Positions 22,822 to 38,964 of a DNA stretch of 64,000 nt are shown one piece after another. Every line of letters starts with the position of its first letter. Positions within the stretch are counted from its first letter, which is position 1. Origin of the DNA: Fusibacter paucivorans (GTDB lineage: Bacteria; Bacillota; Clostridia; Peptostreptococcales; Acidaminobacteraceae). Location: assembly GCF_018390735.1 (NCBI RefSeq), contig NZ_JAHBCL010000014.1, forward strand, positions 1 through 64,000. Reading direction: 5' to 3'. A program made the position numbers and the translations under genes. The notes beneath the pieces are model-generated. The model was not told the origin of the DNA and made no database searches. It was given only the letters and a program-made list of their open reading frames with translations.

Positions 22822-23039
22822 ACGATTTATCAAAATCCTATTGATATTCTCGGGAATTCTCAGAAATTCATCTACATAATACACATATTTTCTATATGAA
22901 AAAAATGTATCATAACCTTATCTTTTTACGATGTACAACCACCTCTTGCCGAAAAACAATTCCGATCATCTGCGCCATAGGTCATCGTCATATGCCCATC
23001 GCTCTATCTATTGCTATCGTGCGTTAATGCGTTTCACCG

Positions 23040-23852
23040 TCAATCCAATAGCTTCTGGCTGGCAATTGCTTCCTGTGCCATACTAGGATGATGGTAACGC
23101 CCCATTTTCTTTTTATAATGTTTAACGTAGATCGCCTGCTGAGGACAAAAATTAAAACAGGCATAACAATAATAGCATGCCATGTCTGCCCACATAGGAT
23201 AATCTAAAAGCTTAATGCGGTTTGAAAGACAAACTTCTTCACAAATCCCGCATCCCGTACAGGTATCATCTACCTCAAATATGAGTTTTGGTGATGAATC
23301 AATATGCCACATCAGCTTGCCAGCCCATGAAATCTTATTGATTCCCATGACAAGCGCTTCTTTAAAACCAATGCTGCGATGATTCACTGCCTCTGCAATC
23401 GTATCTATTGCCGCCATTTCACGCGCCAGCATTTCATGACGCTTTTCTGCCGTAATTTCCGTTTCCCAGTCCAAATGCATTAGAAATTTAGGCGCCACTC
23501 CTTTTGGTGTATTGTTAATCATTTCAATGGCATGATAGTCATCTAAGGCTATCTGATGATACTTTTCTAAAAGATGTTTTAAATAGTGCTCCGGTTTTCC
23601 CGGAACGCCGCCATGCGTTGTCACGGCATATAAATAGGTCACTTTTGAAAAATCGGCCTGTCTGATAAAGGCTTCAACCGGTTTTGGCAAGCCGTTCATA
23701 TAAACGGGAAAAATCAGCCCCACTTCACCGCTGAGACTTGTATCCTTTACGCTGAGTAATGGCTTTGCTTTACCATTGGTTCGCTTTGCAAGTTCTATGG
23801 CTGCATGCATAGAATTGCCGGTTCCCGAAAAATAATATAAAGTGTGCAACAC
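23040..23852 (-). CDS. EFR1-family ferredoxin/flavodoxin-type protein
   Basis: A 270-residue cytosolic redox protein with a flavodoxin-like N-terminal domain (YYFSGTGNSMHAA, FMN-binding loop) and a C-terminal double [4Fe-4S] ferredoxin domain (CTGCGICEEVC and CYYCYACFNFCP). This combination is known as EFR1 in anaerobes; partners are unknown. The start is uncertain: GTG 23852 lies too close to GGGGAGG, so TTG 23849 may be used instead. Single gene; no partner nearby gives a functional hint. Confidence 0.88.
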   Translation of the reverse strand: MLHTLYYFSGTGNSMHAAIELAKRTNGKAKPLLSVKDTSLSGEVGLIFPVYMNGLPKPVEAFIRQADFSKVTYLYAVTTHGGVPGKPEHYLKHLLEKYHQIALDDYHAIEMINNTPKGVAPKFLMHLDWETEITAEKRHEMLAREMAAIDTIAEAVNHRSIGFKEALVMGINKISWAGKLMWHIDSSPKLIFEVDDTCTGCGICEEVCLSNRIKLLDYPMWADMACYYCYACFNFCPQQAIYVKHYKKKMGRYHHPSMAQEAIASQKLLD

Positions 23853-24213
23853 TGCCTCCCCGAAATAGACGATTCTACATCAAACGTCTTTGATCTGTTT
23901 TTACCTGACTACAGCTTAACAAATCGGAACTCCTTTTTAATTAAAAATGTATTAAAATTCCGTAAAGGTATTTGAAATACAGAAGCCTTTCTAAATAAAC
24001 CGCAGGTTAGAGCTGCTTCAAAACTGCTGAAAACAATCTGCCAATTAGCTGAATACAATCTAAAAATAATCTGACAAATACAAATAACTGAAACAGTTTG
24101 ACAAATAAGCATAGATTGCTCAGTTAAGGAAATGGTATAATTAAATTGAGTCTTTAGTCCGATAAAACGTTTTTATTTAACAAGACACTTTAGAGAGAGG
24201 AAGGAAACGCAAC
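23853..24213. other. AT-rich intergenic region with degenerate repeats
   Basis: No gene seen. From about 24010 to 24110 related elements recur (CTGAAAACAATCTG, CTGAATACAATCT, CTGACAAATACAAATA, TTTGACAAATA), a loose repeat of about 20-25 bp. An extended -10 (TGG-TATAAT, 24133-24141) follows, which could serve the secreted protein gene at 24214. Confidence 0.4.
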
Positions 24214-25785
24214 ATGAAAAAAATACATATGCTGCTACTTGCCTTATGCTTTATAGCTGGAACCATGTCTTCGGCTTTTGCCGATGTAAACCAGTCCGTC
24301 CCGACGGCACAAACAGTTGCAGTACCGACGGCAATTCCCGCTGTCGTGATTCCCAAGGTAACCGTTGTTGCAAACGATGTTAAGATGTGGCAAATGATTG
24401 AGTTTACCGTTGAGAACGCACCGACCGCCGCTCAAGCATGGGTAGGCTTATTTGAATACTCACCGGACGCCGAATGGTATCAGGCCGGCTGGGAATCCGC
24501 CTATAAGGCAAAGATCATGATTGCTAATCTTGGTACAACACCTTATTTTGAAACGATTAAGTCAACTGAACAAAAGCAATATGTGATTGCCTTATTCGAT
24601 CAATACGGCTATGATTTAATGCCTGTTGCCGTCAGCGAACCGATTACTGTAGAACCTATGTACCTCAGTAAAAACATGTTCACAGAGCGCGCAGCTTACG
24701 ATGCAGAAATGAAACAAATCTACGCTGAAAAGTATGTCGGCACTTATGAGATCAAAACTGAAATGAACAAAGGCGTCTGCAACCCAAACATCACTGCCGA
24801 AGAAATCCTTCACTACATAACGCTCAAAAACAGCAATACCTCTTTTGAACAGCCTAAACAAACGGCTTATGATCAAAATGGCATTTTATCTGAAATACCG
24901 GCAAGTGCAAACTGGTACAGTTATCCGAAAGACACAACTGATGATGCCGCCGTCATTGATTCGCCCGCCGTTGAAGGCAAACGCGAGATGCTCTTTGACA
25001 ATGAAGACTTTTATAAAATGAAGCCGGCACCTACCAAAGCTACCTCATTCACCGTTCAAGAGACACTGATCCTCGATTATCTTGAAGTCATGCATCAGCT
25101 CGGTACAATACCGAATGCCGACAGCACCATCCATTTAAAAGACGCGTCAGGCAACGTTTATGGACCATGGCCCGCTGTACTTGGGGAATCCTTTGATGCT
25201 GAATCTATTGATGCTGCAGGTTATACCGTGCTGTTCGTCAAGCCGAATGCAGTCCTTTACCCAGGTACCTATACGATTATGAACGCTGAAAATGCTTCTT
25301 GGCTTTACAGCGATTACTCTGAAAATGCCGGCATGGCCTATATTGAAGGTGTTATTCCAGCTCAAGGAAACACGGTGAATACGCCGACAACATCCACCCC
25401 GACGGCACTGCCGCCGATACAAGATACCGAAGATAGCATCGCAGACAACCAAGCATCAAATAATGCTCAGGCTGTTTCCCTCCCTGTTATCACTGTCAGA
25501 GGGCACCTCTATGATGCATCACTGGCGCCACTGCCGAATACGACAATACAATACAGTCAAAACGGACTGACACTGGGCAGTGTCACAACTGATGCCTCAG
25601 GTACGTTTGCCTTAACACTTCAAAGCGGACTTTACGCGTTCAGCTGTTCTTCTGAAACCATCACGCCGGAACAGCCTGGATCTGAAACACTTGAAACAGT
25701 TGAATCGCAACTACAGTATATTGCTGTCGGCTACCGTTCGCCTCAGTCTATCTACCTGCTGAAAACGGATGAAGCTGCCGAATAG
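24214..25785 (+). CDS. Secreted protein of unknown function with C-terminal Ig-like/SpaA-like domain
   Basis: A 523-residue exported protein. Signal peptide residues 1-23 (cleavage after AFA). Residues ~45-130 resemble a beta-rich domain; the middle part (~130-370) has no family that I recognise. A Thr/Pro-rich linker (about 385-425: TPTTSTPTALPP) leads to a terminal beta-sandwich-like domain (~430-520) of the carboxypeptidase-regulatory/SpaA type. No anchor motif or transmembrane tail is visible, so it is either released or held by its domains. Ribosome site AAGGAAACGC before ATG 24214. Role unknown. Confidence 0.7.
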   Translation: MKKIHMLLLALCFIAGTMSSAFADVNQSVPTAQTVAVPTAIPAVVIPKVTVVANDVKMWQMIEFTVENAPTAAQAWVGLFEYSPDAEWYQAGWESAYKAKIMIANLGTTPYFETIKSTEQKQYVIALFDQYGYDLMPVAVSEPITVEPMYLSKNMFTERAAYDAEMKQIYAEKYVGTYEIKTEMNKGVCNPNITAEEILHYITLKNSNTSFEQPKQTAYDQNGILSEIPASANWYSYPKDTTDDAAVIDSPAVEGKREMLFDNEDFYKMKPAPTKATSFTVQETLILDYLEVMHQLGTIPNADSTIHLKDASGNVYGPWPAVLGESFDAESIDAAGYTVLFVKPNAVLYPGTYTIMNAENASWLYSDYSENAGMAYIEGVIPAQGNTVNTPTTSTPTALPPIQDTEDSIADNQASNNAQAVSLPVITVRGHLYDASLAPLPNTTIQYSQNGLTLGSVTTDASGTFALTLQSGLYAFSCSSETITPEQPGSETLETVESQLQYIAVGYRSPQSIYLLKTDEAAE

Positions 25786-25811
25786 TAGTAATGGCAATTC
25801 AAACGCGTTAA

Positions 25812-26048
25812 TCAATACCGATCTGCAATTTTATAGTGCACTTCTCTATCGACGCGTTCATTAATCATCTGAATGAGTTCAGCCGGTGTATCTGGCTGGT
25901 AATACATGCGCGATGCCTGTGAATAGAGGCTGCGATCCTTAAAGCTGCAATCGCGAAAGTCATAGAGGGTATATGTTTTCCCATTATATCGCGTCGTCTT
26001 TTCACATGCCTTTAATGCTTTGATATTACAGCTCGCTCGCTGAGCCAT
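25812..26048 (-). CDS. Small hypothetical protein, last gene of radical SAM unit
   Basis: A 78-residue protein, basic, with three Cys (in RASCNIKALKACEKT and FRDC). No signal peptide, no family recognised. It lies 30 nt behind the other small gene and is read in the same direction as the radical SAM gene, so it may be a substrate peptide, partner or unrelated protein. The ribosome site is weak (AAAAGAACAAATTG). It sits nose to nose with the secreted protein gene. Expression is not certain. Confidence 0.4.
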   Translation of the reverse strand: MAQRASCNIKALKACEKTTRYNGKTYTLYDFRDCSFKDRSLYSQASRMYYQPDTPAELIQMINERVDREVHYKIADRY

Positions 26049-26078
26049 TTCAATTTGTTCTTTTACAAAACTGTCAAC

Positions 26079-26315
26079 TTATGCAATGATTTGTTTTGAA
26101 CTGAGTTTTGCGTATTCCAACATCATATTCACACGTAAATTCCAAGGCCGACTCGTACCGAGGTAGTGAACGGCATTTTGCATCTCAATGCGTAAAAATA
26201 CACGTTCCTGATGTGGTGGATCATAAAAAATCGCCGCATTTGCCGTATATGGGTGCTGCATTAATACGCGTTCGGTCTTTCTCATTGTTTCCTCTAGATT
26301 GAAGAACAGCCGCAT
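26079..26315 (-). CDS. Small hypothetical protein downstream of radical SAM enzyme
   Basis: A 78-residue protein (MRLFFNLEETMRKTERVL...) with no Cys and a mix of charged and hydrophobic residues. AAGGAGG is 8 nt before ATG 26315, a strong ribosome site, so translation is likely; an internal ATG (26285) also has an AGAGGA in front. No family was recognised. It follows the radical SAM gene by 158 nt, a gap that contains a palindrome at 26448-26477. Possible maturation partner or substrate, by position only. Confidence 0.55.
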   Translation of the reverse strand: MRLFFNLEETMRKTERVLMQHPYTANAAIFYDPPHQERVFLRIEMQNAVHYLGTSRPWNLRVNMMLEYAKLSSKQIIA

Positions 26316-26447
26316 AACCCTTGCCTCCTTAAATATCGTCTTATTCTATTTGCCGTATCTACTGACTTACTACACATCAAATACCCGCTTATACTGCATC
26401 TTTGCTTTCGAAACTTATTTCACAGCATTTCCGTATTGATTCGCTAA

Positions 26448-26477
26448 GTAATCACAGCTACACATGATTGTGATTAC
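26448..26477 (-). terminator. Palindrome at the 3' end of the radical SAM gene
   Basis: GTAATCACA / TGTGATTAC, a perfect 9-bp inverted repeat with a 12-nt centre, overlapping the stop codon at 26474. It has no good T-run, so it may be a processing or partial-termination hairpin, or an operator for the small genes. Confidence 0.4.
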
Positions 26478-27670
26478 CCGTTGTTTATGCATGGGTGCTT
26501 TCCCTTCGCAATTTCTAAGTAAGTGCCTTCCCGATAAAAAGGATTCCCCTCAGAACTTGCCCCCTCGACTAAAATAGCATTTATGTTAACATCCGAAACC
26601 AGCTCTTCCATCATCAACTGATCCAAATGATCAAATATAGCACTATAAGCCTCACAAAGATAATCTCTTGCCAACAGATTACCGTTCGTCATGGCATTAA
26701 AGGCACACCCGCCTCGGCAGTATGCCAAATGGGTACAGGCCGCACATGCTTGCTCAATCGCTTCCTTTCTTTTTAAGAATAACGCCCCAGCCTGACTGTC
26801 TGAAAGTGTCTTTGCATTCGGTGCATCGACAATATTGCCGAGTTTCGTCATCGGATGACCAACAAATCGCTGACATGGATAGAGATCACCCATAGGATCT
26901 ATGATGAGAAACATGCCAAAACAATCTCGAAATGTACAAAGTGCATTTTCACCTTGATAAATTCCTCTGCACAGCTGATCAATGACAGGCAGTTTCATCT
27001 CACTTGTCCTATTTTCGTAATCGTCAATCATCGCAACAAACAATTGTCGATAGGCTTCTGGCGATAAATGCCATGCGTTTTCCCTTGCGTCAGCAGGTGA
27101 TGCAACAGCACCATGGCAATCAAATGGCATTTGATGCATTTGAAAAAATGACCGCACTGTTTCCCATTCATTTAATGATTGCTTCGTGAACGTAGCGATC
27201 ACGCCATGTTTAATGCCCGCTTCCTTGAGCTTTTGTATACCGCGCATTGTCTGTTCAAAATAGCCTTCGCCGCGCTGTGCATCGCTTATTGCTTTGGGCC
27301 CGTCAAGGCTGGTGCCAACCGTAACGTCATACGCTTTAAACAGTTCACAGTAAGCATCATTGAGCAGCCATAGGTTGCTCTGGATTGAAAGCTTGAGATC
27401 TTTCCCTGAAAAAGCAGCGGCAAGCCCTTTAATAAGGGCTTTGATAACGGTATAACCTGCACAAAGCGGTTCGCCGCCATGTAAAGCAATTTGGACAGTT
27501 TGCTGTTCAAGCATTTCCGAAAGCATTTTTATGTATTGGATGGTGTTGTCAACTGCTTCCAGCGTCATGGTCTTGCCGATATTGGGTCCGAAACAGTAGC
27601 GGCAAGACGCTTGACACTTCATGGATGGCACAATCATATACGTTGGATTTTGAAAAACCGTATCACACAT
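26474..27670 (-). CDS. Radical SAM/SPASM enzyme, putative peptide-modifying
   Basis: A 398-residue radical SAM enzyme. The cluster motif is Cys19-x3-Cys23-x2-Cys26 (CQASCRYCF); HGGEP and GTSLDGP follow as expected. The C-terminal ~120 residues form a SPASM/twitch domain with the Cys groups CFGMF, YPCQRF, CAACTHLAYCRGGC and YLC, giving ligands for two auxiliary clusters. Such proteins modify ribosomal peptides or mature sulfatases; no sulfatase gene is present here. It resembles peptide-modifying enzymes of the CbpB or Mhun_1560 type more than sulfatase-maturating enzymes (memory-based, not searched). GAGAGG ribosome site. It is 46 nt behind the HEAT protein gene, in the same direction. Confidence 0.88.
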   Translation of the reverse strand: MCDTVFQNPTYMIVPSMKCQASCRYCFGPNIGKTMTLEAVDNTIQYIKMLSEMLEQQTVQIALHGGEPLCAGYTVIKALIKGLAAAFSGKDLKLSIQSNLWLLNDAYCELFKAYDVTVGTSLDGPKAISDAQRGEGYFEQTMRGIQKLKEAGIKHGVIATFTKQSLNEWETVRSFFQMHQMPFDCHGAVASPADARENAWHLSPEAYRQLFVAMIDDYENRTSEMKLPVIDQLCRGIYQGENALCTFRDCFGMFLIIDPMGDLYPCQRFVGHPMTKLGNIVDAPNAKTLSDSQAGALFLKRKEAIEQACAACTHLAYCRGGCAFNAMTNGNLLARDYLCEAYSAIFDHLDQLMMEELVSDVNINAILVEGASSEGNPFYREGTYLEIAKGKHPCINNG

Positions 27671-27716
27671 TTTCTATATACCTCTCTTTTGGTGAAGCAT
27701 CTTTCTTTTACCTTAT

Positions 27717-29225
27717 TCACTCGTAAAAATCCGTATGCGGTGAATAATTGTAAATTTTATAACCAGAATTATATTCTTCAATGGTGTAACCCGTATCCGT
27801 GTGCACAGGCTGATCGTTAATCTTTTCTGCTTCTTGCACTTCTTCTTGTGCTTCTTCTATCTCCGGAAACAGCGATTGTTCAAAGGTTGTTTCAGTATTT
27901 TTGCGTTTATAATGGCGAAAAGCCTTGGCTATTTGCTTGCGGCGGCTCTTGGAGGATTTTTCAAAAATGCACATGATATCAGCTTGGTATTGATCAAAAT
28001 CAAGCGTTCCCAGCCGTTCAAAATCTTTATCGCGCTCGCCTCTAAATATTGTCGCGTATACGGGCTCGCCTAATGAGTCGAGCATTTCAGCGGCTTCTCT
28101 TCTCATATTGCCATTATCACTGCCCAAACTTTCAATTAAATAATTGCGCCCGATTGAGTCGCCTAGCGCCAAGAGCAGCCCCGCTTCCTCTATAGCAGTT
28201 TTCGATAAATCCAGTTGAAGCCGCAATACTTTTTTTCGCTTTGCAATCAGCGGTGCATAATAGGCTTCATTATAGGCAAGCAATCTTTCAAAATCCAATT
28301 GATCACCTCTGATAATCGCCTCATAAGCACCCATGCCACTGTGACGGAGCGCCTCTTTAACAGCCATTCTGACGCGAGGCGGACTAATAAAATATGCTAC
28401 CAGTTTATCCGCGGGTATTCGGTCGCCATACATACCAATTGCTTGAACAACAGCTGCTCTCAAATCGTAATTAGCCGCGGCTTCAAGCGCCGTCACCAAA
28501 TAATCAAGTGCTAAATCCAACTTCGAAAATCCCAGCGCCTTAATAATCGCCAAACGATGACAGCTGTTTTCTGATGGGTGTTTTGCTGCCAGTGCCACCA
28601 GCAATTCGACCGCAGCTGTTTTGTGAATAGTGCCAAGTGCCTGTATGAGCAATAGCTGATCGTTTCTATTTTGGGTCTCATACGCAGTGTAAACGTGTTC
28701 AATAAACGACTGTTCGTCCTCTCTTGCATAACGACGATAGTCCCATTCATCGCCTCGTATAAGTCTCTCACGGCCATTGCCCAGCAAAATCGCCAGTGCA
28801 GCGCGCCTTTGTGCTTCGTCGATTAAAAAAAGACTTAACGGTGTACACAATGCTTTATTGACGCTCATCGTCAGCTGTTGATAAATGGCGGCAATCATTT
28901 TTTTAGGCACTTTTTGCGCCATGAGCAATGAAACGACAAAACCAATGGTCGCTGGTGTATCCATTTGGATCAGATGTTCAATAATCGTTTGCCGTGCACC
29001 GCTGTAATGCTCATAATAGTGCATGAGAAAATCAGCTGTTTCGGCACCTCTCATCGCCACAAGTGCATTGATTATTCTAGGTCTTTCATCGCCTGTATTC
29101 GAAAGCAGACTATACGTGAAATCCTCTTCCAATAGATACTGTTTTAACTTCCGATCGCGTCCGGAACGGATACAAGCGTCAATTCGCGCACGCTTCTGTG
29201 CAACTGTCATCTTCTCAAATTTCAT
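27717..29225 (-). CDS. HEAT-repeat (PBS-lyase-like) protein
   Basis: A 502-residue cytosolic protein built from about ten ~30-residue helical repeats of the HEAT/PBS-lyase type, for example around VELLVALAAKHPSENSCHRL, LDYLVTALEAAANYDLRAA and REAAEMLDSLGEP. Charged tail from residue ~450, acidic at the end. Such proteins usually act as scaffolds. ATG 29225 chosen: GGAGG 9 nt upstream and a 4-nt ATGA overlap with the AAA+ gene before it, which means translational coupling. It likely works with the ClpA-type ATPase. Confidence 0.85.
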   Translation of the reverse strand: MKFEKMTVAQKRARIDACIRSGRDRKLKQYLLEEDFTYSLLSNTGDERPRIINALVAMRGAETADFLMHYYEHYSGARQTIIEHLIQMDTPATIGFVVSLLMAQKVPKKMIAAIYQQLTMSVNKALCTPLSLFLIDEAQRRAALAILLGNGRERLIRGDEWDYRRYAREDEQSFIEHVYTAYETQNRNDQLLLIQALGTIHKTAAVELLVALAAKHPSENSCHRLAIIKALGFSKLDLALDYLVTALEAAANYDLRAAVVQAIGMYGDRIPADKLVAYFISPPRVRMAVKEALRHSGMGAYEAIIRGDQLDFERLLAYNEAYYAPLIAKRKKVLRLQLDLSKTAIEEAGLLLALGDSIGRNYLIESLGSDNGNMRREAAEMLDSLGEPVYATIFRGERDKDFERLGTLDFDQYQADIMCIFEKSSKSRRKQIAKAFRHYKRKNTETTFEQSLFPEIEEAQEEVQEAEKINDQPVHTDTGYTIEEYNSGYKIYNYSPHTDFYE

Positions 29226-31312
29226 TGACAAGCCACCTCCTTCAGTTGGTGCTGATAGGTCCAAACCGTTTGATCAATTAGACGTTTCAATATTCTAACT
29301 TGTCTGTCCGGCTGGCTGTAAAAAACTTTCAAGATTTCTCGGCATAATACTGTTTCATTTAATTCAGCCAATACTGATTCTTTCGCTGCGACGGCAGCCA
29401 TTTCTCTTAGATGCTGTCTAACGATTCTTTCATAATCAGCCGCTTCTAGATCGCTAAATACCAGCACATCGTCAATTCGGGACAAGAATTCACTGGAGAA
29501 GCAAGCTGATAGCTTTTGGTACACATTGGTCATCGTGCGACTTTGGGAAACAGCCGCTGTCTGAAAACCAATGTTTCGTCGATTGAAATCTCCTTCTGTC
29601 ACAGCATTGGTCGTCAGGATAATCACGGTATTGGTCGCATCTACTAGTTTCCCACGTGCATCTCTTAATCTGCCCGTATCCAGCAACGGCAGCAGCATGC
29701 GCATAATCTCAACGGACGCCTTTTCAATCTCATCTAATATCAATACAGTGAACGGATTGGATGCAATAGCACCTGTAAGCAGTCCCTCTCTATCGCTTCC
29801 CGAATAGCCCGGCGGAGAACCGATAAGCGTATTGATGGCTGCATAATCTTTGTAAGCAGACAAATCAATCTGCAACATGTGGTCTTCACAGCCCGTCAGC
29901 TGTTTGGCAATCGCTTTGCCAAGCTGTGTTTTCCCGACACCTGTTCGGCCTGTAAACAGAAAGACCGCACGGGGACTATCGCGTCTGGATGAAGTGCAAA
30001 ATCGCCGATACAATCGTTCGCTTACGCGGTCTATGATCGCATCTTGCCCAATAATAGTCGATTTTAACGCGTTGCTTAATTGTTCTGCTGAAAACATCGG
30101 TGTATCCGCTACCATCCATTTCGGTATCTTCACCATCTCACTGAGCACTTTATCAATCATCGATTCCGACAATGCGGTATACTGGCTGTTTTTCGCATAA
30201 ACACAGGCACTATCCAGTAGGTCATGCGTCTTATCAGGCTGTTGCCGATTGGTCATAAAGCGATTTGCCTTTTCAATGGCGGTGACAATGATGGAATCGT
30301 CAATCGCAACGCCATGAAAATCAGTTAATGTCCGAGCATACGTCTTGGCAATTTGAAACATCCGCATACCCGACGGCGCCTTTAACCTTAGCTCCTGAAA
30401 TCGGCGTTCCAAAGCCGGATCTTTTGTGATATACCGCTGGTATTCTTCCGTCGTCGTCGCACCGATCATCTTAAAACGGCGATCTGTCAGCAGCGGTTTC
30501 AAGAGATTGGCCAAGTCCTGACTGCTGTTCTCCGTTCTGCCCGCCCCCATGATCGTGTGTATTTCATCAATAAAGAGTACGACTGGCTGCAGCGCTGCCG
30601 CCGCTTCGAAGACGCGGTTTAGCTTCGCTTCAAACTCGCCCCTGTACTTTGTATCGCTGATCAATTGATAAGTAAAAATCTCAATGATCGTGAATTGCTC
30701 ACGCCTGTCATCTGCCATTTGCTTTGCTAACAGCTGAACCGCTGCGGTTTTGCCAATACCAGCCGGACCCGTTAGGATGACATTGCCTTTTTCTCTTCGC
30801 TGCAAAATGCATTTTATCGCCGAAACTGTCTCATCATCCGGATGCAAGTGATTAAATTGCCCTTCACGCGCCATTTGAGTCAAGTTGCGTCCGATATCCA
30901 CAAGCGACGCCTCTGCCGTGTGCTTCTGAGAAGTCCGATATGTCAGTGACATTTCCCATTCGTAGATATTGGCGCGCATCATTGGCAAATCGACATTTTG
31001 CCGGCGCCATTCCTTTACGAGATCATACTTTTCATCATCAAGGATATAACGCAGCAATTCGTGCATTTCAAGCGGCAATCCGTCGTTTTCAAAGCTGGCA
31101 TCTTCAATAATGTCCAAATCATGAGGCCGGTACTGGGAGAGCAAAGGCTGCAGGCTCCTGTTGAAATCATCCGGTGTTAAACCTGATCTGTCCAGTATCC
31201 GCATGACTTCAGAAGGCATTTCATAATGCCACTGTGCCAACAGCACGGGGATCGTGATCGTACGCATTTTATAATGAGCTTTTGCCAGTATCTGCAATTC
31301 TGAAACTCTCAT
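29222..31312 (-). CDS. ClpA-type double AAA+ unfoldase
   Basis: A 696-residue double AAA+ protein. The N-terminal ~150 residues do not show the two-repeat Clp-N domain. First ATPase: Walker A GPAGIGKTAAVQ, pore segment KYRGEFEAKL, Walker B VVLFIDEIHT, arginine-rich ALERRF. Second: Walker A GRTGVGKTQLGKA, pore SPPGYSGSD, Walker B VLILDEIEKA. After the second Walker B lies RRNIGFQ (IGF near residue 581), at the place where ClpA keeps its ClpP-docking IGL loop; ClpB lacks this. So a proteolytic partner is likely. Start ATG 31312 has AAGGAGG 9 nt upstream; GTG one codon earlier is possible. The HEAT gene overlaps it by 4 nt. Confidence 0.9.
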   Translation of the reverse strand: MRVSELQILAKAHYKMRTITIPVLLAQWHYEMPSEVMRILDRSGLTPDDFNRSLQPLLSQYRPHDLDIIEDASFENDGLPLEMHELLRYILDDEKYDLVKEWRRQNVDLPMMRANIYEWEMSLTYRTSQKHTAEASLVDIGRNLTQMAREGQFNHLHPDDETVSAIKCILQRREKGNVILTGPAGIGKTAAVQLLAKQMADDRREQFTIIEIFTYQLISDTKYRGEFEAKLNRVFEAAAALQPVVLFIDEIHTIMGAGRTENSSQDLANLLKPLLTDRRFKMIGATTTEEYQRYITKDPALERRFQELRLKAPSGMRMFQIAKTYARTLTDFHGVAIDDSIIVTAIEKANRFMTNRQQPDKTHDLLDSACVYAKNSQYTALSESMIDKVLSEMVKIPKWMVADTPMFSAEQLSNALKSTIIGQDAIIDRVSERLYRRFCTSSRRDSPRAVFLFTGRTGVGKTQLGKAIAKQLTGCEDHMLQIDLSAYKDYAAINTLIGSPPGYSGSDREGLLTGAIASNPFTVLILDEIEKASVEIMRMLLPLLDTGRLRDARGKLVDATNTVIILTTNAVTEGDFNRRNIGFQTAAVSQSRTMTNVYQKLSACFSSEFLSRIDDVLVFSDLEAADYERIVRQHLREMAAVAAKESVLAELNETVLCREILKVFYSQPDRQVRILKRLIDQTVWTYQHQLKEVACQ

Positions 31313-31366
31313 CACTTGTCACCTCCTTCGGCAATAGATAACTGTGAACACAGCGTGATCGCCGTG

Positions 31367-32863
31367 TTATAATGCTGACTCCAGCTGCTGATTAAGCCGT
31401 TCAATTTCAGCATTCATTTTTTCATGCTGACGCCTAATGGCACGTGCATCAACAAGATTCTCTCGTTTTTCAATATAGACGGGATCATTGGCCAAAAGAA
31501 ACATTTCATTCTTAATCTGTGTTTCTTTCTTTTCAATGGCATCCGTCTTTTTACCAATATCATCAGATAAACTGTTAAGATCATTCCCCTCCAAGACGAC
31601 CTCCGGTTCAATGTCAATCCCCATATGCCGCCAGATGAGCTTTACCCTTTCTAAGATATCTTCCAGCACCATTAATGAACGCGTATCATAGGCCAGCTCC
31701 TGATCCCGAATAACAATCGTCTCTTTGTAAAGTGCCTCAAGCACTTTAACTTGTTCTTTTGTAAACGCATGGTTGAGCATTGCATCAGGATGTGTTTTCA
31801 AGTAGATTTCCCGCAGGCACTTCTTATAAGCGTACAGATATTGTTTTTGCTCCTTCTCAGACGGCATCTCAGAATGCAGGTTGATGCCTGCATATTGTTT
31901 CAATGTCATTGCCCATCTAAAAGAATCTTTTGCCGCTGCAATTTTTTGCTTTGACGCCTTCTCTCTTTGCAGTATCTTTTGGTTGATTTCAGCCTCCGTC
32001 AAATGCGGTTCGTCATCCTTTATTTGCAGATAGTCGCGTCTTCTGTTGAGTTTCTGGCGGCGATCCAATATATCAATATAGCTTTCACCAAATTCCGCCA
32101 TCCACTGCTGTTTGGTTTGTGCTATGGTCAACCTCAGTTTTTCCATCGAAAGCAAGAGATTATCCAGTTCTGTTAGTTTATTGAGCCATTGCATCTTTAA
32201 CGCTTCATATTGGATGACAACCGTGCGGTTATTTTGATTCTCTATTGCCAGTTCTTTTGCTCTGTCTTGACTAAACTGCTCAATTTCAATGGTTTCCGTT
32301 CCAAAGAGGTAAATCCTGCTCGTGAGAATATGTTTCATCAAATTATTAAAACCATCCTCATAAATGCTGTTTTCACCACATGTCTGCCAAGTTTCCTCAA
32401 ACACGTCATAAAGCGTTTTCAAATCGTGCATTGCCTCAAAGTCAGCCGTAAATGCTTTCGTATATTGTGTACCAATTGCATACAATTCTCCGATTCCACC
32501 GCAATTGCGCGCCTTTTTTAACGCGATCCTGCAATATTGTTCATAAAAACACTTCACGACGAGAATCAACGTTCTCGTCACACCAATGTGGAAAAACTGT
32601 CCAAATCGCATAATAGCTTCAATCTGCGGCCAATGGTATTCATTGGTATACCAGCAGCGTTTAACGATCTTATGCGGTTGATCGAACACGAAGCTGTCAT
32701 CAAATCCATCTGCTTCGAGTAGCCGAAGAGAATCCGCCGCATCATTGCCAAGGTATTTTTTCTTTATGGATTTTGGCCATTGCGATCGCTGGTTCACCGT
32801 CACATGCGGATTGGTTTGCCAATCACCCATGATTCGATCCATGTCGTCAATCATCAATTTCAT
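31367..32863 (-). CDS. Coiled-coil protein with buried HPD (J-domain-like) motif
   Basis: A 498-residue protein without a known family name. It has a long helical region (about residues 210-330) rich in Glu/Lys/Gln, a helix pair around an HPDA motif at residues 358-361 (YAYKKCLREIYLKTHPDAM), and a C-terminal coiled coil (~420-498). The helix-HPD-helix layout fits a degenerate or internal J-domain that could recruit DnaK, but helix II and III signatures were not checked. It has AAAGGAGG before the ATG, overlaps the upstream gene by 17 nt and precedes the unfoldase gene by 54 nt. Confidence 0.65.
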   Translation of the reverse strand: MKLMIDDMDRIMGDWQTNPHVTVNQRSQWPKSIKKKYLGNDAADSLRLLEADGFDDSFVFDQPHKIVKRCWYTNEYHWPQIEAIMRFGQFFHIGVTRTLILVVKCFYEQYCRIALKKARNCGGIGELYAIGTQYTKAFTADFEAMHDLKTLYDVFEETWQTCGENSIYEDGFNNLMKHILTSRIYLFGTETIEIEQFSQDRAKELAIENQNNRTVVIQYEALKMQWLNKLTELDNLLLSMEKLRLTIAQTKQQWMAEFGESYIDILDRRQKLNRRRDYLQIKDDEPHLTEAEINQKILQREKASKQKIAAAKDSFRWAMTLKQYAGINLHSEMPSEKEQKQYLYAYKKCLREIYLKTHPDAMLNHAFTKEQVKVLEALYKETIVIRDQELAYDTRSLMVLEDILERVKLIWRHMGIDIEPEVVLEGNDLNSLSDDIGKKTDAIEKKETQIKNEMFLLANDPVYIEKRENLVDARAIRRQHEKMNAEIERLNQQLESAL

Positions 32864-34589
32864 CTTCGTCGCCTCCTTTTTTTTCTGCCATTGCTGTAGG
32901 GTGATATTTCGTTAAATCGCTTGACGCTGCTTCTATGAGCAACCTCTCCTGTGCCTCGATCAATACAGGAGCCCCCGCATCATAGGTGTCTTTTAGCTGC
33001 TGCAAACCTTGTGAAAAGGCTACATTCCCCAAAAGTGCTTCCCTGATTAGATCCTTGCGGTTGTGCGTGTGGTAATAGAGATCCCGCTGCGAATCCTCCG
33101 CTGTCAATAGCCTTTCTGTTGCCTTTTCATAAATCAGAATGCAATCCGGTTTATTGGTATAAAACCAACCGGATGGTGACAGCTGATCTCCCTGAGTTAT
33201 AAAGACAAACCCATCCTTAAAACGTTCCAGTGAACACAAAACGCGTCGCGTCGCTATTTCAATAAAGTCAAAGCCGTGAATAAACTTGGTTACTACTACA
33301 GCAACTTTCGCTGGATTGAGTCGCAGCTTCTCCCGCTCTAAAAAACGTGTCAAATCGGCTATAACCTCTTCCATAATTAATGGTATAAACGGTTTTTGAA
33401 CCTTTTCAATGCCTTCAATTTCAGGGATGCACAACGCGTAAAAGATCAAATCATCTTTCATTTTAATCTGTTGCCAGTCTGACAAGATAGCTCTTTTTTC
33501 GTTATCCATGAAGTGTGTCCGATCATCAACTGAAAAATGGCTCAAATGCACCGCCATTATGTAAACCTTTTCGATATCTAACAGGATATGCTGTCGTTGT
33601 TCTTTTGTAAATGAAGCCCTGCTCAATATTGTATTGGCATGCATCAGGTAAATCGGCCACCATTTCTGTGTTTTTAATTGGATCAGCCTTCGATTTAAGT
33701 AAAGCCATTCACCGTTGTTAGCCATAACTGCAGCATAGGTTTCATCTATCAAAGATGACGTTTTATCGGCGACTAATTCTTTGCCGCAATATTTGACGTT
33801 CCCCGTTGAGACATCTACAACGCCATAATACAAAATATTCGCCCTAAAATCTCCCGCTGTAACGAGCAGATAGCAGCCATCATCTGTAAAGGAACAGCAA
33901 AAACGGCTTGGCCAAATATTGCGAATGTCGACGTAAGGTGTGTCAGCAATCTGTTTAAAATCAATTGATGCGATGACTTTTTTCGTCGTTAGATCGACGA
34001 TTTTAATCGTAATCCCCGGTCCGCAGCGATACGCCATCAGCTTCCCGTCTCTGGATAAAAATAGATTCCAAATCGTTTCTGTTTCAATCCAAAGAACTTC
34101 TGATTTTTGACTGGCGTCGAACGGCACTCTATAAATAATGTTATCCTGCTGATAGGCCACAGCAAGATGGTCCGGCAATATAAAATCATGTCCTGCAGGT
34201 GAACGCCTCTCAATTCGCCCCAAACACCTGCCTGTCTCAATCTCCCATGCATAATAAGCTGTCCCCAGTTCTTTTGAATTTCCCACTGCATAAAAGAAAC
34301 ACAAATCCTTTGACAGTACCGGTACACACAGACTTGCCGTTCTCCAGAAATTCATACAATTCTCAGGCAGCGCTAAATCGCGTTGTATCTCGTCGGCTGC
34401 AAAATTATAAACGTGAAGGCTGCGCCCGTCTTTGCCCATTGCAATGCAGCGATTGCTTCCAATAAAAGCTTTCATCTCAAACTGCCTCGTTAATGTTTGA
34501 ATACATGAATGTGCAAGTTGATTTTCGTAATTCTGCACCCCAATCTGATATTGCGATTGACTTTGTATTAATTGTTTTTGTTCGCCCAT
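32847..34589 (-). CDS. Beta-propeller-like protein of unknown function
   Basis: A 580-residue cytosolic protein. Repeats of the WD40/YVTN kind can be seen in residues ~40-300 as short strand-turn-strand segments (SRDGKLMAYRCG, FTDDGCYLLVTA, NNGEWLYLNR), with a further possible half-propeller in ~430-520. No canonical WD dipeptides in every blade. The end is charged (KKGGDEDEIDD). It is the first gene of the unit, behind a repeat-containing leader, and its stop overlaps the next start by 17 nt. A role as substrate receptor or scaffold for the chaperone/unfoldase genes downstream is an inference from gene order. Confidence 0.65.
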   Translation of the reverse strand: MGEQKQLIQSQSQYQIGVQNYENQLAHSCIQTLTRQFEMKAFIGSNRCIAMGKDGRSLHVYNFAADEIQRDLALPENCMNFWRTASLCVPVLSKDLCFFYAVGNSKELGTAYYAWEIETGRCLGRIERRSPAGHDFILPDHLAVAYQQDNIIYRVPFDASQKSEVLWIETETIWNLFLSRDGKLMAYRCGPGITIKIVDLTTKKVIASIDFKQIADTPYVDIRNIWPSRFCCSFTDDGCYLLVTAGDFRANILYYGVVDVSTGNVKYCGKELVADKTSSLIDETYAAVMANNGEWLYLNRRLIQLKTQKWWPIYLMHANTILSRASFTKEQRQHILLDIEKVYIMAVHLSHFSVDDRTHFMDNEKRAILSDWQQIKMKDDLIFYALCIPEIEGIEKVQKPFIPLIMEEVIADLTRFLEREKLRLNPAKVAVVVTKFIHGFDFIEIATRRVLCSLERFKDGFVFITQGDQLSPSGWFYTNKPDCILIYEKATERLLTAEDSQRDLYYHTHNRKDLIREALLGNVAFSQGLQQLKDTYDAGAPVLIEAQERLLIEAASSDLTKYHPTAMAEKKGGDEDEIDD

Positions 34590-34663
34590 ATCAGTCCTCC
34601 TTCGGCAATTGCCACTATATACGCCTATAAAATTCGGCTTATTCTGTATGCTTTTCAGGCTTC

Positions 34664-34755
34664 AGTCTTGGTTTCGGTTTCGGTCTCGGTTTTAGCTTCG
34701 GCCTCGGCCTTGGTTTTGGCTTCGGCCTTGGTTTTGGTCTCGGTCTCGGTTTTGA
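34664..34755. repeat. Degenerate hexanucleotide minisatellite
   Basis: About 15 tandem copies of a hexamer GGYYTY (as GGTTTC, GGCCTT, GGTCTC). On the minus strand it lies just before the ribosome site of the beta-propeller gene. All six frames give low-complexity peptides (such as Gly-Phe/Gly-Leu or Thr-Glu) without a start signal, so it is probably not translated. Confidence 0.85.
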
Positions 34756-34846
34756 TTCCAATATTGAATGCGGTTCCGGGTTATTGCTTTTGATAGTTAT
34801 AGTTTACCGCGTTTTATTGCTGAAAACGATGTGCAAAATGCAAAAA

Positions 34847-34875
34847 ACACGTGCAAAAATAGTTTTTACACGTGC
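34847..34875. repeat. Two ACACGTGC elements, 21 bp apart
   Basis: ACACGTGC at 34847-34854 and 34868-34875, centred 21 bp apart (two helical turns). Each holds the palindrome CACGTG. It could be an operator for the operon to the left. Confidence 0.35.
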
Positions 34876-34922
34876 CAAATCATTAAGCTACTGTTTGAGT
34901 TCAGTTTAATTCTCTATGCTGA

Positions 34923-35621
34923 TTATTTGCCTCGGCTGCGTCTGACCCAAAAAGGACTACCATGTCCGGGGATGATTAAAGCGGCACTTTTGAGAAGCCG
35001 CTCTTGGCTTTCAAACAAATTCGCTTTATTATAAAAATCACCATTGCAATGATAATAATGCGGTGAATTCAGCCATGCGAGGTCGATAATGGCATCACCT
35101 GCAACGGCAATGGTAAAGTTATCGGCCGCATTGGTATAAAGAAGACTCGCATGACCTTCCACATGGCCTGGTGTATGAAGGAGTTTTGTCCCCTGACACA
35201 GCGTGTCGCCTTCAGCCACTTCAATCATTTTCCGACCGATGATTTCGGGATAAGTATCTCGTGTTCCCTTTAAGCAATACCATACTGCATGTTCGAACAT
35301 CCGTAGGTTACCATAGTGATCGCGATGTGCATGCGTGATTAGAACACCGTCAATCGTCTCAGGCGTCAGTCCGATCTGGGAGAGTTCAAAAGACAGCCTA
35401 ACCCGGTTCCTTCTTTGATTTTCAAAACTGCCATCCATTTCATTCTCAAAACCCGTATCAATCAATAGGTTTCGACCGTCGGCCTGAATATACGAAACCG
35501 TTGCACCACCGCCGATCCCCATCATCGCCTTTATACGATTAAACTGCGGGGAGATAATATTGCTAGGATCTGTCTGTGCCGTGCCGACGTGCACGATTTT
35601 CACATTGATATCCCAGTCCAA
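34923..35621 (-). CDS. MBL-fold metallo-hydrolase
   Basis: A 232-residue MBL-fold hydrolase with HAHRDHYGN metal motif, further His in HTPGHVEGHAS, Asp in AVAGDAIID and a final PGHGSPFW. The GHGSP end and the sequence around the site fit general lactonase or glyoxalase-like subgroups; substrate unknown. The start is chosen at TTG 35621, 5 nt behind AAGGAGG; the longer frame to 35660 would place this ribosome site within the gene. Transcribed alone; the diguanylate cyclase lies upstream in the same direction with 119 nt between. Confidence 0.88.
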   Translation of the reverse strand: MDWDINVKIVHVGTAQTDPSNIISPQFNRIKAMMGIGGGATVSYIQADGRNLLIDTGFENEMDGSFENQRRNRVRLSFELSQIGLTPETIDGVLITHAHRDHYGNLRMFEHAVWYCLKGTRDTYPEIIGRKMIEVAEGDTLCQGTKLLHTPGHVEGHASLLYTNAADNFTIAVAGDAIIDLAWLNSPHYYHCNGDFYNKANLFESQERLLKSAALIIPGHGSPFWVRRSRGK

Positions 35622-35740
35622 AACAGCCTCCTTAATAACCGAGCACAGATACATGCTCATGTGTTTATCATCAGCATTTTCGCCATCACTGGTCGTCTAA
35701 TTTATTGAATATAGCCTCCTATTCATCAAGGATATTCTCG

Positions 35741-36919
35741 CTATAAACTGCCCGTCTGAATACCGGATAAACGCCCTTCCGCCTTATGCGCCTGTTTTTC
35801 CCGGTACATCGCCTGATCTGCCGCCGCTAAGAAAGAATCAATGGTGTCCCCTTCTTGAAAAACAGCATGTCCCATACTTAAAGTTAATACATAAGGCGCT
35901 GGATGCTCTTGATTATATTTGACGACATTCATCTGCAGCCGTTCCATGAATAGAGCAATTTCATCTTGGTGATTGCGTTCACCCACAATGATAAATTCGT
36001 CACCGCCAAGTCTAGCCACAAAAGCTTCACTGCGCTTGCTCGTCTTCCGCAGGATTTCCGATACTTTTACAAGCGCGCGATCGCCTTCAACATGCCCATA
36101 AGTATCATTAATGCTTTTAAAAGCATCGACATCAATAATAGCGGCAAACAACAATCGATTTTGTCGCCTCATACGTATTCTTCGCCTCAAATGCTGGTCA
36201 AGCCGTCTTCGGTTATAGACACCCGTCAAATAATCCGTTGAAATCTGTGCATTTTGCGTCTTAATATAGACACTCGTACACGCGAGCATGGTACAAACCC
36301 AAATAATCGAAAGTCCAAAATACCATATTTGAATTAATACTGAGGCAATGACAATAAAGGGAAAAATCAGCAACGTCATATTAACTTCCTGACTCGCACC
36401 CCAGCCATTGCGCCTTATATCATCTAATGACATCCATACTGCATAAACCAAATAAATCAAAGCAAGTATTGACATCACTGGAAATCCTTCACCTCTGATA
36501 TAATGATTATTGACATCAATGATAAAATAGTACTGGGTTTTAATTGTCGCGAGTGACAAAATAGTTGATATAATCGCAGGGATGACATAAAATCGCATTC
36601 GGCGCAGCAGCCCATATTTGCTTTCATAAATCTTAAAATCTGCATACATGACCCAGAGCAGGCAAATAAGCGGATTAAAAATATAATAGAGTATTGTTGA
36701 AGCATACATAACATGCCGCATCCATGGGCGCGGATCGCCGTCCGCCAACCACATGCCCGTATCAAAGACAAAGATCAGCAAGTTAAAAAACATCACACCA
36801 TTAAAAATCTTCTGATCCAAGGGTAGTTTATTGAAGCTGCTTCTATTCCAATTTGTTATCATCAGCAGTAAGACCATCGCGCCGACAAAATTAACCTCTG
36901 CATATAGAAAATTCAGCAC
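35741..36919 (-). CDS. Membrane diguanylate cyclase (GGDEF)
   Basis: A 392-residue protein with six hydrophobic segments in residues ~1-210 (a seven-helix-like sensor without a known ligand) and a GGDEF domain in ~225-385, with the intact active-site motif RLGGDEFIIVG. It makes c-di-GMP from two GTP. The RxxD inhibitory site five residues upstream of the motif is not seen (KRSE there). Start is GTG 36919 behind GAGAGGGG. Likely controls surface behaviour; no partner gene identifies the signal. Confidence 0.92.
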   Translation of the reverse strand: MLNFLYAEVNFVGAMVLLLMITNWNRSSFNKLPLDQKIFNGVMFFNLLIFVFDTGMWLADGDPRPWMRHVMYASTILYYIFNPLICLLWVMYADFKIYESKYGLLRRMRFYVIPAIISTILSLATIKTQYYFIIDVNNHYIRGEGFPVMSILALIYLVYAVWMSLDDIRRNGWGASQEVNMTLLIFPFIVIASVLIQIWYFGLSIIWVCTMLACTSVYIKTQNAQISTDYLTGVYNRRRLDQHLRRRIRMRRQNRLLFAAIIDVDAFKSINDTYGHVEGDRALVKVSEILRKTSKRSEAFVARLGGDEFIIVGERNHQDEIALFMERLQMNVVKYNQEHPAPYVLTLSMGHAVFQEGDTIDSFLAAADQAMYREKQAHKAEGRLSGIQTGSL

Positions 36920-37298
36920 ACTTGACGCCCCTCTCCATTCAAAATTTTATTATCTTATGAATACCCGCAAGCGTTTAGAAGTAAACCAGATGTGTCTCTC
37001 CTTACATCATAGCTTATTTTTTGAATAATGTGTCGAAAAAATCACCTCAGCTGACAATATTCTTGCAAAATGACATCCTTTTCAGGCTGCTCCAAAACGA
37101 CAAAAACTCCTGATTAACAATACCAGAAGTTTTTTGTCATTCTTTTTTATACTATTATAAACATTAATCAAGCGCCCTTACTTCCTGCACAAAAAAATAC
37201 TGCCGATCAGTTTTTAAAGGATTATTTTCTACAGGTATTTCCACAGGAGAATCCTGCCTTTCACAACTGGCAATGATTGAAATGTTCTGGCGCTGCAT
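36920..37298. other. Intergenic region with two hairpins
   Basis: No gene seen. It contains the hairpins at 37100-37136 and 37287-37308, which end ykvA transcription on the minus strand, and the leader of the diguanylate cyclase gene. Confidence 0.6.
37100..37136 (-). terminator. Terminator downstream of the YkvA gene
   Basis: Imperfect stem AAAAACTTCTG / CAGGAGTTTTT on the minus strand, followed by GTCGTTTTGG. It ends the DUF1232 gene's transcript. Confidence 0.6.
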
Positions 37299-37308
37299 TC
37301 AGCGCCAG
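37287..37308 (-). terminator. Hairpin overlapping the 3' end of the YkvA gene
   Basis: Perfect 9-bp stem CTGGCGCTG / CAGCGCCAG with a 4-nt loop; the stop codon of the gene (37301-37299) lies in or beside the loop. Confidence 0.55.
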
Positions 37309-37727
37309 AGTAGCCTAACAGCGGTTGTCAGAATCACCACCCAAATTGCAATAAAGGGCAATGCATAATACCACTTTTTACGCCCGATACCATTGGTCTG
37401 AGCATCATTTCTGCAACGCATCATCACATCATCAGGAATTAATTTAAGGGTAAGCGCTATTAATCCCGGTAAAAGGATAAGATCATCCAAATAGCCTAAT
37501 ACAGGGATAAAATCAGGAATGAGATCTACCGGGGAGAGCGCATAAACAATGACTACACCCGCAAAAAACTTTGCTAAAAAAGGCGTTTCCTTATCTTTCA
37601 ATGCTAAAAACACAATGGGAATATCTGATTTTAATTGCTTTGCACGCATTTTTAGACTGATTGACTTCACCCCCGCATCATACACATCATGATTATCAAA
37701 TACCCTGCTGTAACTGCCGTTCGACAT
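37299..37727 (-). CDS. YkvA family (DUF1232) membrane protein
   Basis: A 142-residue protein. Residues ~20-60 are a cytosolic helix with the DUF1232 pattern (KAKQLKSDIPIVFLALKDKETPFLAK, cut here in two), then FAGVVIVYALSPVDLIPDFIPVLGYLDDLILL, the family core with the DLIPDF motif, and a C-terminal hydrophobic segment (KWYYALPFIAIWVVILT). Family function is poorly known. Weak ribosome site before ATG 37727. No operon partner. Confidence 0.85.
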   Translation of the reverse strand: MSNGSYSRVFDNHDVYDAGVKSISLKMRAKQLKSDIPIVFLALKDKETPFLAKFFAGVVIVYALSPVDLIPDFIPVLGYLDDLILLPGLIALTLKLIPDDVMMRCRNDAQTNGIGRKKWYYALPFIAIWVVILTTAVRLLWR

Positions 37728-37761
37728 TTATACCAGTATTGATGCATTCCTTACGACCATT

Positions 37762-38964
37762 TTATTGCATGACGTCACTTTCTTCAAGTGCTTGACTGGC
37801 GTCTGCACTAACTGCCACACCATCCTTTAAGGTGGATGACCAACTGGTGATGACAACTTCATCCACTGTCAGCCCTGTTTGAATAGCCGCTGTCGTTGCA
37901 TCATATAGGGTCACAGTCACATCGCGTTTAACCGCTTTTGAATCCTCAACAACATAAACATATGCCGCTCCGTTTTCGAAATAAAGTGCGTCATAAGGCA
38001 CTAATATCTGATCTTTTGCAGTTTCAGTAACTGTTGTCAGTTCAACAGTTGCACCATTTGGCAAATCAGCTGCGCCCTGTAGGAATGCCTTGACCCTAAA
38101 CAAACCTGCGGCCATGTCAACAGCCATGCCGACTTCACTTACCGTTCCCATATATTCACTGCCATTGTATTGAACAGCTACCGCATTTCCCTCAGCCAAA
38201 TGTGCTCTCACCTTGTCAGAAACATAGAAAACAACGGATCTGCTGTCCGGATCAGTGATCGTCATCGCAACGGTACCGGACGGCATTAGATTGTTTACAG
38301 TGGCATTAATACTGTCAATGACGCCTGAAATCGGCGCTGTCAACTGATATAAGCTTATTTGATAACGTGCCGAATCGACGCCTGCCTGAGCCGACTGCAT
38401 TGCCGCCTGCGCTGTTTCAATCCCCGCTTTGGCGCTTTTTAATGCAGCTTCCGCTTCTATTTGTGTATCTATAGCACCGTCTAGTTGAGCCTGGGATACG
38501 GCGCCATCTTGGAAAAGCGCCTGCATATTCTCCGTATTTTGTCTAGCCAGTCGGACTTTGTTTTCAAGTGAGGAATCTGTATCGTCCGGTGCGTAGTGTG
38601 CTGTCGCCGTATTGTAACCGGCAACAGCGCTTTCATATCCCGCTTCTGAGCTCGCTAAACTATGCTGTACCGCCGAATCGTCTAATTGGCAAAGCAGCGC
38701 GCCAGCTGTTACCGATTCGCCTACGGAAACATTAACGGCTTCCACAACTCCGGAAACCTGCGCGATCACATTGGCGCTGTTTTCAGATGAGACCGTGCCA
38801 ATATAGGTCCCATCAATTGCAAGCGTTCCGATTGCTGTCTTTTGCGTCGCTACGCTAATGGCGGCATTTGAAACCGCCAGTGCATCATCTTTTCCACAGC
38901 CCGCCAGCATCATAATGGTTAAGATAATCATAAAAAACACGCCTATTTTATGATAATTGTTCAT
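37762..38964 (-). CDS. RND efflux adaptor lipoprotein (MFP/HlyD-type)
   Basis: A 400-residue membrane-fusion protein, anchored outside the membrane by lipobox LAGC (Cys24). A lipoyl/biotinyl half-domain in ~60-95, a helical hairpin of ~110-200 (alanine-rich), the second lipoyl half, then beta-barrel and membrane-proximal domains to ~380 are visible from the sequence pattern. It couples the RND pump encoded next to it, 38 nt downstream. No outer-membrane partner is expected in this cell type. Ribosome site GGAAGG before ATG. Confidence 0.92.
   Translation of the reverse strand: MNNYHKIGVFFMIILTIMMLAGCGKDDALAVSNAAISVATQKTAIGTLAIDGTYIGTVSSENSANVIAQVSGVVEAVNVSVGESVTAGALLCQLDDSAVQHSLASSEAGYESAVAGYNTATAHYAPDDTDSSLENKVRLARQNTENMQALFQDGAVSQAQLDGAIDTQIEAEAALKSAKAGIETAQAAMQSAQAGVDSARYQISLYQLTAPISGVIDSINATVNNLMPSGTVAMTITDPDSRSVVFYVSDKVRAHLAEGNAVAVQYNGSEYMGTVSEVGMAVDMAAGLFRVKAFLQGAADLPNGATVELTTVTETAKDQILVPYDALYFENGAAYVYVVEDSKAVKRDVTVTLYDATTAAIQTGLTVDEVVITSWSSTLKDGVAVSADASQALEESDVMQ

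Follow-up and report, generated by a model that had tools for sequence, protein, structure and literature searches.

What does a gene row assembled around an unusual Hsp100 unfoldase accomplish in a Clostridia-like bacterium? The question is raised by a 64,000-nucleotide stretch of Fusibacter paucivorans DNA (contig NZ_JAHBCL010000014.1 of assembly GCF_018390735.1, positions 1 to 64,000), hereafter the window. On its minus strand, from 34589 to 26474, five intact genes follow one another head to tail. They encode PROP, an orphan protein and propeller-like candidate; HPD, an orphan protein with an HPD tripeptide; a ClpA-like Hsp100; a HEAT-repeat protein; and a radical S-adenosylmethionine (SAM) enzyme with SPASM cysteines. 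The original prediction, made from the letters of the DNA, described a machine which selects, unfolds and either degrades or modifies a target protein. The gene row is real, compact, lineage-restricted and built round an unusual Hsp100; our confidence in its mechanism is modest. In general terms, it probably encodes a machine dedicated to the removal or the modification of protein. Tentatively, we read it as a module for protein removal that is coupled to ClpP and brings a target receptor of its own, to which a separable radical-SAM step would be attached.

The compactness of the row is visible in the coordinates of its open reading frames (ORFs). The co-directional minus-strand ORFs span exactly 25812-34589. 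As predicted, PROP (32847..34589) and HPD (31367..32863) overlap by 17 nucleotides, and the stop codon of the ClpA-like gene (29222..31315) overlaps the ATG of the HEAT gene (27717..29225) by 4 nucleotides. Gaps of 51 nucleotides between HPD and the ClpA-like gene and of 46 nucleotides between the HEAT and radical SAM genes (the latter at 26474..27670) separate the remaining pairs. Strong ribosome sites had been claimed for the genes; among the sites viewed (all but that of HPD), AGGAGG-type sequences precede PROP, the ClpA-like gene, the HEAT gene and a broken terminal gene, whereas the radical SAM site is weaker. At 0.415-0.468 across the five genes, G+C content resembles that of the window (0.430). 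Upstream, an MBL gene is followed by a terminator-like hairpin (34876-34846). As a similar hairpin is present in the congener, a second genome of the same genus (G548), the gene row probably has a leader and a transcript of its own. The tight packing of PROP, HPD, Hsp100 and HEAT behind their own leader supports one module.

The ClpA-like protein comprises 697 residues and was characterised by profiles, alignment and trees. Its predicted ClpA-type identity was upheld by two AAA+ modules and by 415.8 bits to the ClpA model TIGR02639, a score below the cut-off of 993.15. Two Walker A motifs and the pore-loop motifs KYRG and GYSG are present. Furthermore, NIGF in the second module aligns with the ClpE loop NVGF, an IGF/IGL-type motif for ClpP docking. 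According to PMC7707817, ClpP is docked by the IGL loop of ClpA and the IGF loop of ClpX. The genome's ClpB-like protein shows no IGF-type motif after the second pore loop. The ClpA-like protein retains sequence motifs associated with ATP hydrolysis, threading and ClpP docking. The genome encodes one ClpP and one DnaJ match, and the predicted link to ClpP gains support from this ClpP together with the IGF loop at its expected place.

Three further Hsp100 proteins, named by likeness, are encoded in the genome: a ClpC-like (L039:4487-6982), a ClpB-like (L038:4882-7503) and a ClpE-like one (L037:4440-6722). The unfoldase of the gene row is therefore the fourth. Trees were built from 14 and 15 Hsp100 sequences, in which only the ClpA rows carry annotation and the other names were assigned by likeness. 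The window protein and its counterpart in the congener (98% identical) group together; a very long stem sets them apart from the ClpA, ClpB-like, ClpC-like, ClpE-like and phage rows, and the trees favour none of these as nearest kin. An ordinary ClpA or ClpC identity was rejected by score and tree position. A jumbo-phage origin, suggested by a match to phrog_4871 (483 bits), was not supported in the tree with two phage proteins.

Adaptors of the ClpAP, ClpCP and ClpEP proteases include ClpS and MecA. The ClpA-like protein resembles the unfoldases of these proteases in its AAA+ modules, pore-loop motifs and ClpP-docking loop motif. It differs in scoring far below the ClpA cut-off, in its own long branch and in its N-terminal region: residues 1-131 match no Pfam family, Clp_N included, even at E<=10. 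The gene differs in adjoining orphan PROP and HPD genes and a HEAT gene. Because the Hsp100 retains the ClpP-docking motif despite its position apart from the sampled ClpA, ClpB, ClpC and ClpE, ClpP dependence is directly testable.

The two orphans upstream of the unfoldase are less readily classified. For neither is there a Pfam family above cut-off, a match in NCBIfam at E<=0.1 or one in PADLOC or PHROGs at E<=0.01. PROP (580 residues) was assessed from its ORF, profile searches and a structural model. Of the predicted beta-propeller, there remain the abundance of beta structure that a poor model (mean predicted local distance difference test score, pLDDT, of 32.8) shows in the N-terminal half, and a faint match to the WD40-type propeller PF25172. 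The match has an E-value of 0.012 for the whole protein and 0.0019 for the N-terminal piece, and its 15-18 bits (17.9 for the piece) lie far below the cut-off of 140. HPD (498 residues), assessed from its ORF and a model, is a J-like candidate with the tripeptide at residues 358-360. The model is all-helical and places the tripeptide between two helices, where pLDDT is about 30-37 (again a poor model). The tripeptide and its helix-HPD-helix setting agree with what had been proposed for this protein; the Pfam DnaJ profile is unmatched even at E<=10, and the best match for the segment is DUF4460 (E 0.035). As for the proposed recruitment of DnaK, nothing beyond the tripeptide speaks in its favour.

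How widely is this row distributed? The phylum, class, order and family were represented by samples of 398, 391, 148 and 41 genomes, respectively, and 46 relatives were included as well. The top 2 candidates per genome were scored in the class search with the ClpA-like protein and in a joined query of PROP, HEAT and the 249-residue product of the terminal gene, which is intact in the congener; the top 4 were scored in the TIGR04083 search, which concerns the radical SAM enzyme. HPD was recovered from one of 398 phylum genomes and PROP from one of 148 order genomes, in both cases the window's own. The joined query matched 2/398 phylum genomes, the window's own and G257, whose match (E 3.5e-5, 20.9 bits) was rejected as a relative, being a generic HEAT protein without gene-row neighbours. 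This joined search says little on the 249-residue protein, as even the window's own pieces were not among the matches listed; the protein was found in 2/46 relatives, namely the window genome (G000) and G548. The ClpA-like protein matched 8/41 family genomes at E<=1e-50 and 1/391 class genomes at E<=1e-95; in the family, no match exceeds 324 bits except those in G000 (1549.3 bits) and G548 (1525.4 bits). Three of the family matches (G553-G555; 31-32% identical) are ClpC-like proteins and were rejected as relatives of the gene row; they adjoin radA-, disA- and ispD-like genes (named by eye), and the stretches read around them share none of the other window genes.

A scan of genome contigs with the HPD protein located one locus, in G548. 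In the samples searched, the orphan proteins occur only in the window genome and G548, and both carry the whole row in the same order. Comparison of neighbourhoods did not reduce the association to random subsets of genes and left the original prediction standing, with 2/2 genomes carrying the whole row, but within one genus. Searches of mobile elements gave no plasmid match for HPD, PROP or HEAT and no phage match for HPD (PROP, HEAT and the 249-residue protein were not searched in phages). Matches of the ClpA-like and radical SAM proteins in mobile elements were all below 60% identity. They comprised, on plasmids, 69 records at E<=1e-60 and 225 at E<=1e-10 and, in phages, 95 records at E<=1e-40. 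Viral contigs scanned with the five intact proteins gave no relative by short peptide patterns, which detect close relatives only. As the plasmid, phage and viral-contig searches returned no close relative, a mobile, plasmid or phage origin was rejected as unsupported.

Comparison with the congener reveals a pronounced mosaic. Synonymous (dS) and replacement (dN) divergence from G548 were estimated by the Nei-Gojobori method with Jukes-Cantor correction, and DNA identity was followed in 250-nucleotide bins. dS is 0.104 in PROP, 0.093 in HPD, 0.055 in the ClpA-like gene and 0.18 in HEAT. It reaches 1.3-2.5 in four upstream genes (MBL, GGDEF, DUF1232-like and RND adaptor) and 0.39-0.65 in the radical SAM gene (0.59) and three genes beyond. 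Identity is 95-99% over about 28.5-34.0 kb, with edges of 85-90% inside HEAT and PROP; it is 60-85% at 34.5-41.75 kb and 78-95% at 23-28 kb. In the rest of the alignable 40 kb, the best pieces reach 90-92% (21.3-22.9 and 58.9-59.8 kb). The near-identical block covers all of HPD and the ClpA-like gene and parts of PROP and HEAT. Because this core is 95-99% identical while its upstream neighbours are saturated at synonymous sites, it was probably exchanged recently between the two species by homologous recombination. Misassembly between strains is a less likely source of the near-identity, given that the edges are mosaic and that the two copies differ by 1-5% within the block.

The boundary of this block bears on which genes belong together. 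Identity drops from ~98% to ~85-90% inside HEAT and to 78-89% through the radical SAM gene, and the 249-residue gene is broken in one of the two species. Both observations fit a functional unit of PROP, HPD, ClpA-like protein and HEAT only, with the radical SAM and 249-residue genes as neighbours with another job. We regard this restriction as rather unlikely, given that the two species agree in the order and strand of these genes and in the short gap, and that neither gene was found elsewhere in the class or the relatives sampled.

Rates of change also differ between the proteins of the row. dN/dS amounts to 0.41 in PROP and 0.26 in HEAT, compared with 0.16 in the ClpA-like protein and 0.15 in HPD. 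Within PROP residues 201-300, replacement proceeds at about the synonymous rate (14/232 versus 4/65 sites). The faster change of PROP and HEAT hints at diversifying recognition surfaces.

Downstream of the unfoldase, the HEAT protein (502 residues from the ATG at 29225) matches HEAT_2 with 60.1 bits, above cut-off, in agreement with the predicted assignment. It ends in a tyrosine-rich tail of 34 residues plus stop (27717..27821), a candidate radical-SAM substrate. The tail contains 6 tyrosines and is identical in both species; the acidic linker before it differs by four residues in length. As the tail has only three synonymous changes, its invariance is no more than suggestive.

The radical SAM enzyme (398 residues, assigned by profile match and alignment) belongs to the TIGR04083 family (316.1 bits, cut-off 300), and profile matches bear out the radical SAM and SPASM parts of the prediction. 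Both species retain the three cysteines of the SAM cluster (19, 23, 26) and the eight of the SPASM part (245, 250, 266, 322; 309, 312, 318, 339). The best match among solved structures is the anaerobic sulfatase-maturating enzyme (anSME; E 4e-22), with which all 3 + 8 cysteines align, the anSME numbering following PMC5682303 in part. Against TIGR03942 (anSME), the score of 169.2 bits remains below the cut-off of 349.45. The residue aligned with anSME Asp277, which we take to be the catalytic base, is Gln267. In addition, the PF00884 sulfatase family was not found in the genome (97.5% complete). The low score was a further ground for rejecting a sulfatase maturase identity, and such a role appears unlikely because the Asp277 position is occupied by Gln267 and the genome has no PF00884 match.

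The TIGR04083 cut-off was passed by 1/391 class genomes (that of the window) and 1/14 controls (Methanosarcina acetivorans). The family is known by its model name from methanogens, yet occurs here in a Clostridia-like genome, and transfer between domains, from methanogens, is possible. No paper on TIGR04083 was found in the open-licence literature searched. The gene of the present enzyme has its place behind those of the unfoldase and its partners.

Alternatively, the row could encode a maturation pathway, in which the unfoldase and its helpers would present an unfolded protein to the radical SAM/SPASM enzyme, with remodelling instead of degradation as output. The gene adjoins HEAT with a short gap in both species, the cluster cysteines are complete, the HEAT tail is invariant and flexible-looking, and the genome holds no sulfatase, so that the substrate should be something else. 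We nevertheless judge this pathway improbable: the IGF loop speaks for ClpP, the exchanged block does not include the radical SAM gene, whose divergence is faster (dS 0.59), and no chaperone-fed radical SAM system was found in the literature searched. The modification step of the original prediction is possible, all 3 + 8 cluster cysteines being retained, but the gene is not part of the recently exchanged block.

Comparable architectures are known from biological conflict. As described by Kaur et al. 2020 (PMC7159879), AAA+ chaperone/co-chaperone conflict systems contain beta-propellers and HEAT scaffold-like parts, radical SAM enzymes in some of them are predicted to modify a peptide effector, and a separate conflict class has HSP70 and DnaJ parts. 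The gene row is closest in plan to the AAA+ systems and is not a member. It resembles the MoxR-vWA ternary systems of that paper in combining an AAA+ chaperone with accessory proteins; theirs include HEAT repeats or beta-propellers (the row has a HEAT protein and a propeller-like candidate) and, sometimes, a radical SAM enzyme. It differs in that its motor is an Hsp100 and that it was found in one genus of Clostridia-like genomes. No MoxR or vWA protein is among the matches listed for the five row proteins and three neighbours (the ClpA-like protein being represented by its best 25 of 50); the rest of the genome was not searched.

A conflict system of anti-invader or self-killing type would use a fast-changing receptor to trigger an AAA+ machine; this would degrade a target or set it free, and a peptide would be armed by the radical SAM enzyme. 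The likeness in plan to the systems of PMC7159879, the exchange of the core between species, the faster change of PROP and HEAT and the rarity of the row are compatible with it. On balance we find it quite unlikely, since no named PADLOC system was met (the matches reflect general likeness to AAA+ and HEAT proteins and, through viperin models, to radical-SAM enzymes), no MoxR/vWA, nuclease or known effector of the row is among the matches listed, and no defence or mobile genes were recognised by eye beside it. A further reading, likewise held with little confidence, is a new kind of conflict or quality-control system that is based on an AAA+ protease. In it, a fast-changing, propeller-like receptor would act with a HEAT adaptor to recruit the private Hsp100 lineage to ClpP, the radical SAM enzyme would arm or mark one component (the invariant tyrosine-rich HEAT tail or the 249-residue protein), and the core would be traded between species. 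In the open-licence literature searched, nothing related to an anti-phage Hsp100 or ClpA-like unfoldase was found, nor any paper on an operon of radical SAM enzyme, unfoldase and ClpP, or on WD40, HEAT, J domain and Clp together in bacteria. The earlier statement that no named system has this composition holds within that literature.

For the ClpP-coupled removal module which we favour, the following sequence of events may be proposed. Selection and retention of the target would fall to PROP and HEAT, the faster-changing proteins. The helical HPD protein would bridge them to the Hsp100, possibly via DnaK. The Hsp100, whose N-terminal region is unlike Clp_N, would pass the target on to the housekeeping ClpP. 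In the separable step, the radical SAM enzyme may modify a flexible segment, for which the invariant tyrosine-rich HEAT tail and the 249-residue protein are candidates. The conserved row order in 2/2 genomes and the IGF loop speak for the machine originally predicted, whereas the DnaK link and the radical SAM gene outside the exchanged block do not.

Several points weigh against this reading. Complex formation, target choice, DnaK recruitment, ClpP delivery and the radical-SAM substrate are all steps that we infer, and the IGF loop by itself does not establish ClpP as partner. The J-domain and propeller identities are without support from profile searches, both models are poor, and the propeller match was not seen with the congener's PROP. 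Co-occurrence of the genes is not independent, the distribution amounting to one genus. The exchange could reflect chance recombination or an assembly artefact, and part of the downstream flank is also fairly alike (81-95%). Lastly, few changes underlie the dN/dS values, and PROP and HEAT both have mosaic edges. If true, the reading shows how a private Hsp100 and equally private recognition parts are combined into a new client system of an AAA+ protease, and it may link radical-SAM modification to protein unfolding.

The 3′ end of the row required a revised gene count. Seven genes had been proposed, and the present analysis finds five intact genes and one broken gene (25812..26315). Comparison with G548 identifies the two terminal ORFs (26315-26079 and 26048-25812; 78 residues each) as the ends of a single gene, intact there with 249 residues, and the count of seven was rejected on this ground. 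The window copy lacks 246 nucleotides and carries an in-frame stop. Searches with the intact protein gave no Pfam match above cut-off, nor any match in PADLOC or PHROGs at E<=0.01.

Beyond this gene, and convergent with the row, lies a gene for a secreted-looking protein of 523 residues (24214-25785), with matches in 3/41 family genomes at E<=1e-10. Its sole relative outside the genus (G503) has an unrelated neighbourhood with no gene row nearby, hence no empty site was found. No Rfam family was detected within 23000-38000.

At the opposite end, at least 76 nucleotides upstream of the PROP start, the leader contains a hexamer-like tandem repeat (34665-34754) with the minus-strand unit RCCRAR. 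Tandem Repeats Finder (TRF) describes it as ~14 copies at period 6 or 5 copies at period 18. The array has 7 overlapping pattern matches, compared with 0 in 100 shuffles. In the congener leader (L012 6200-6500), TRF reports no array. Because the congener shares the leader up to the array but is without the array there, the repeat number varies between the species and could tune expression.

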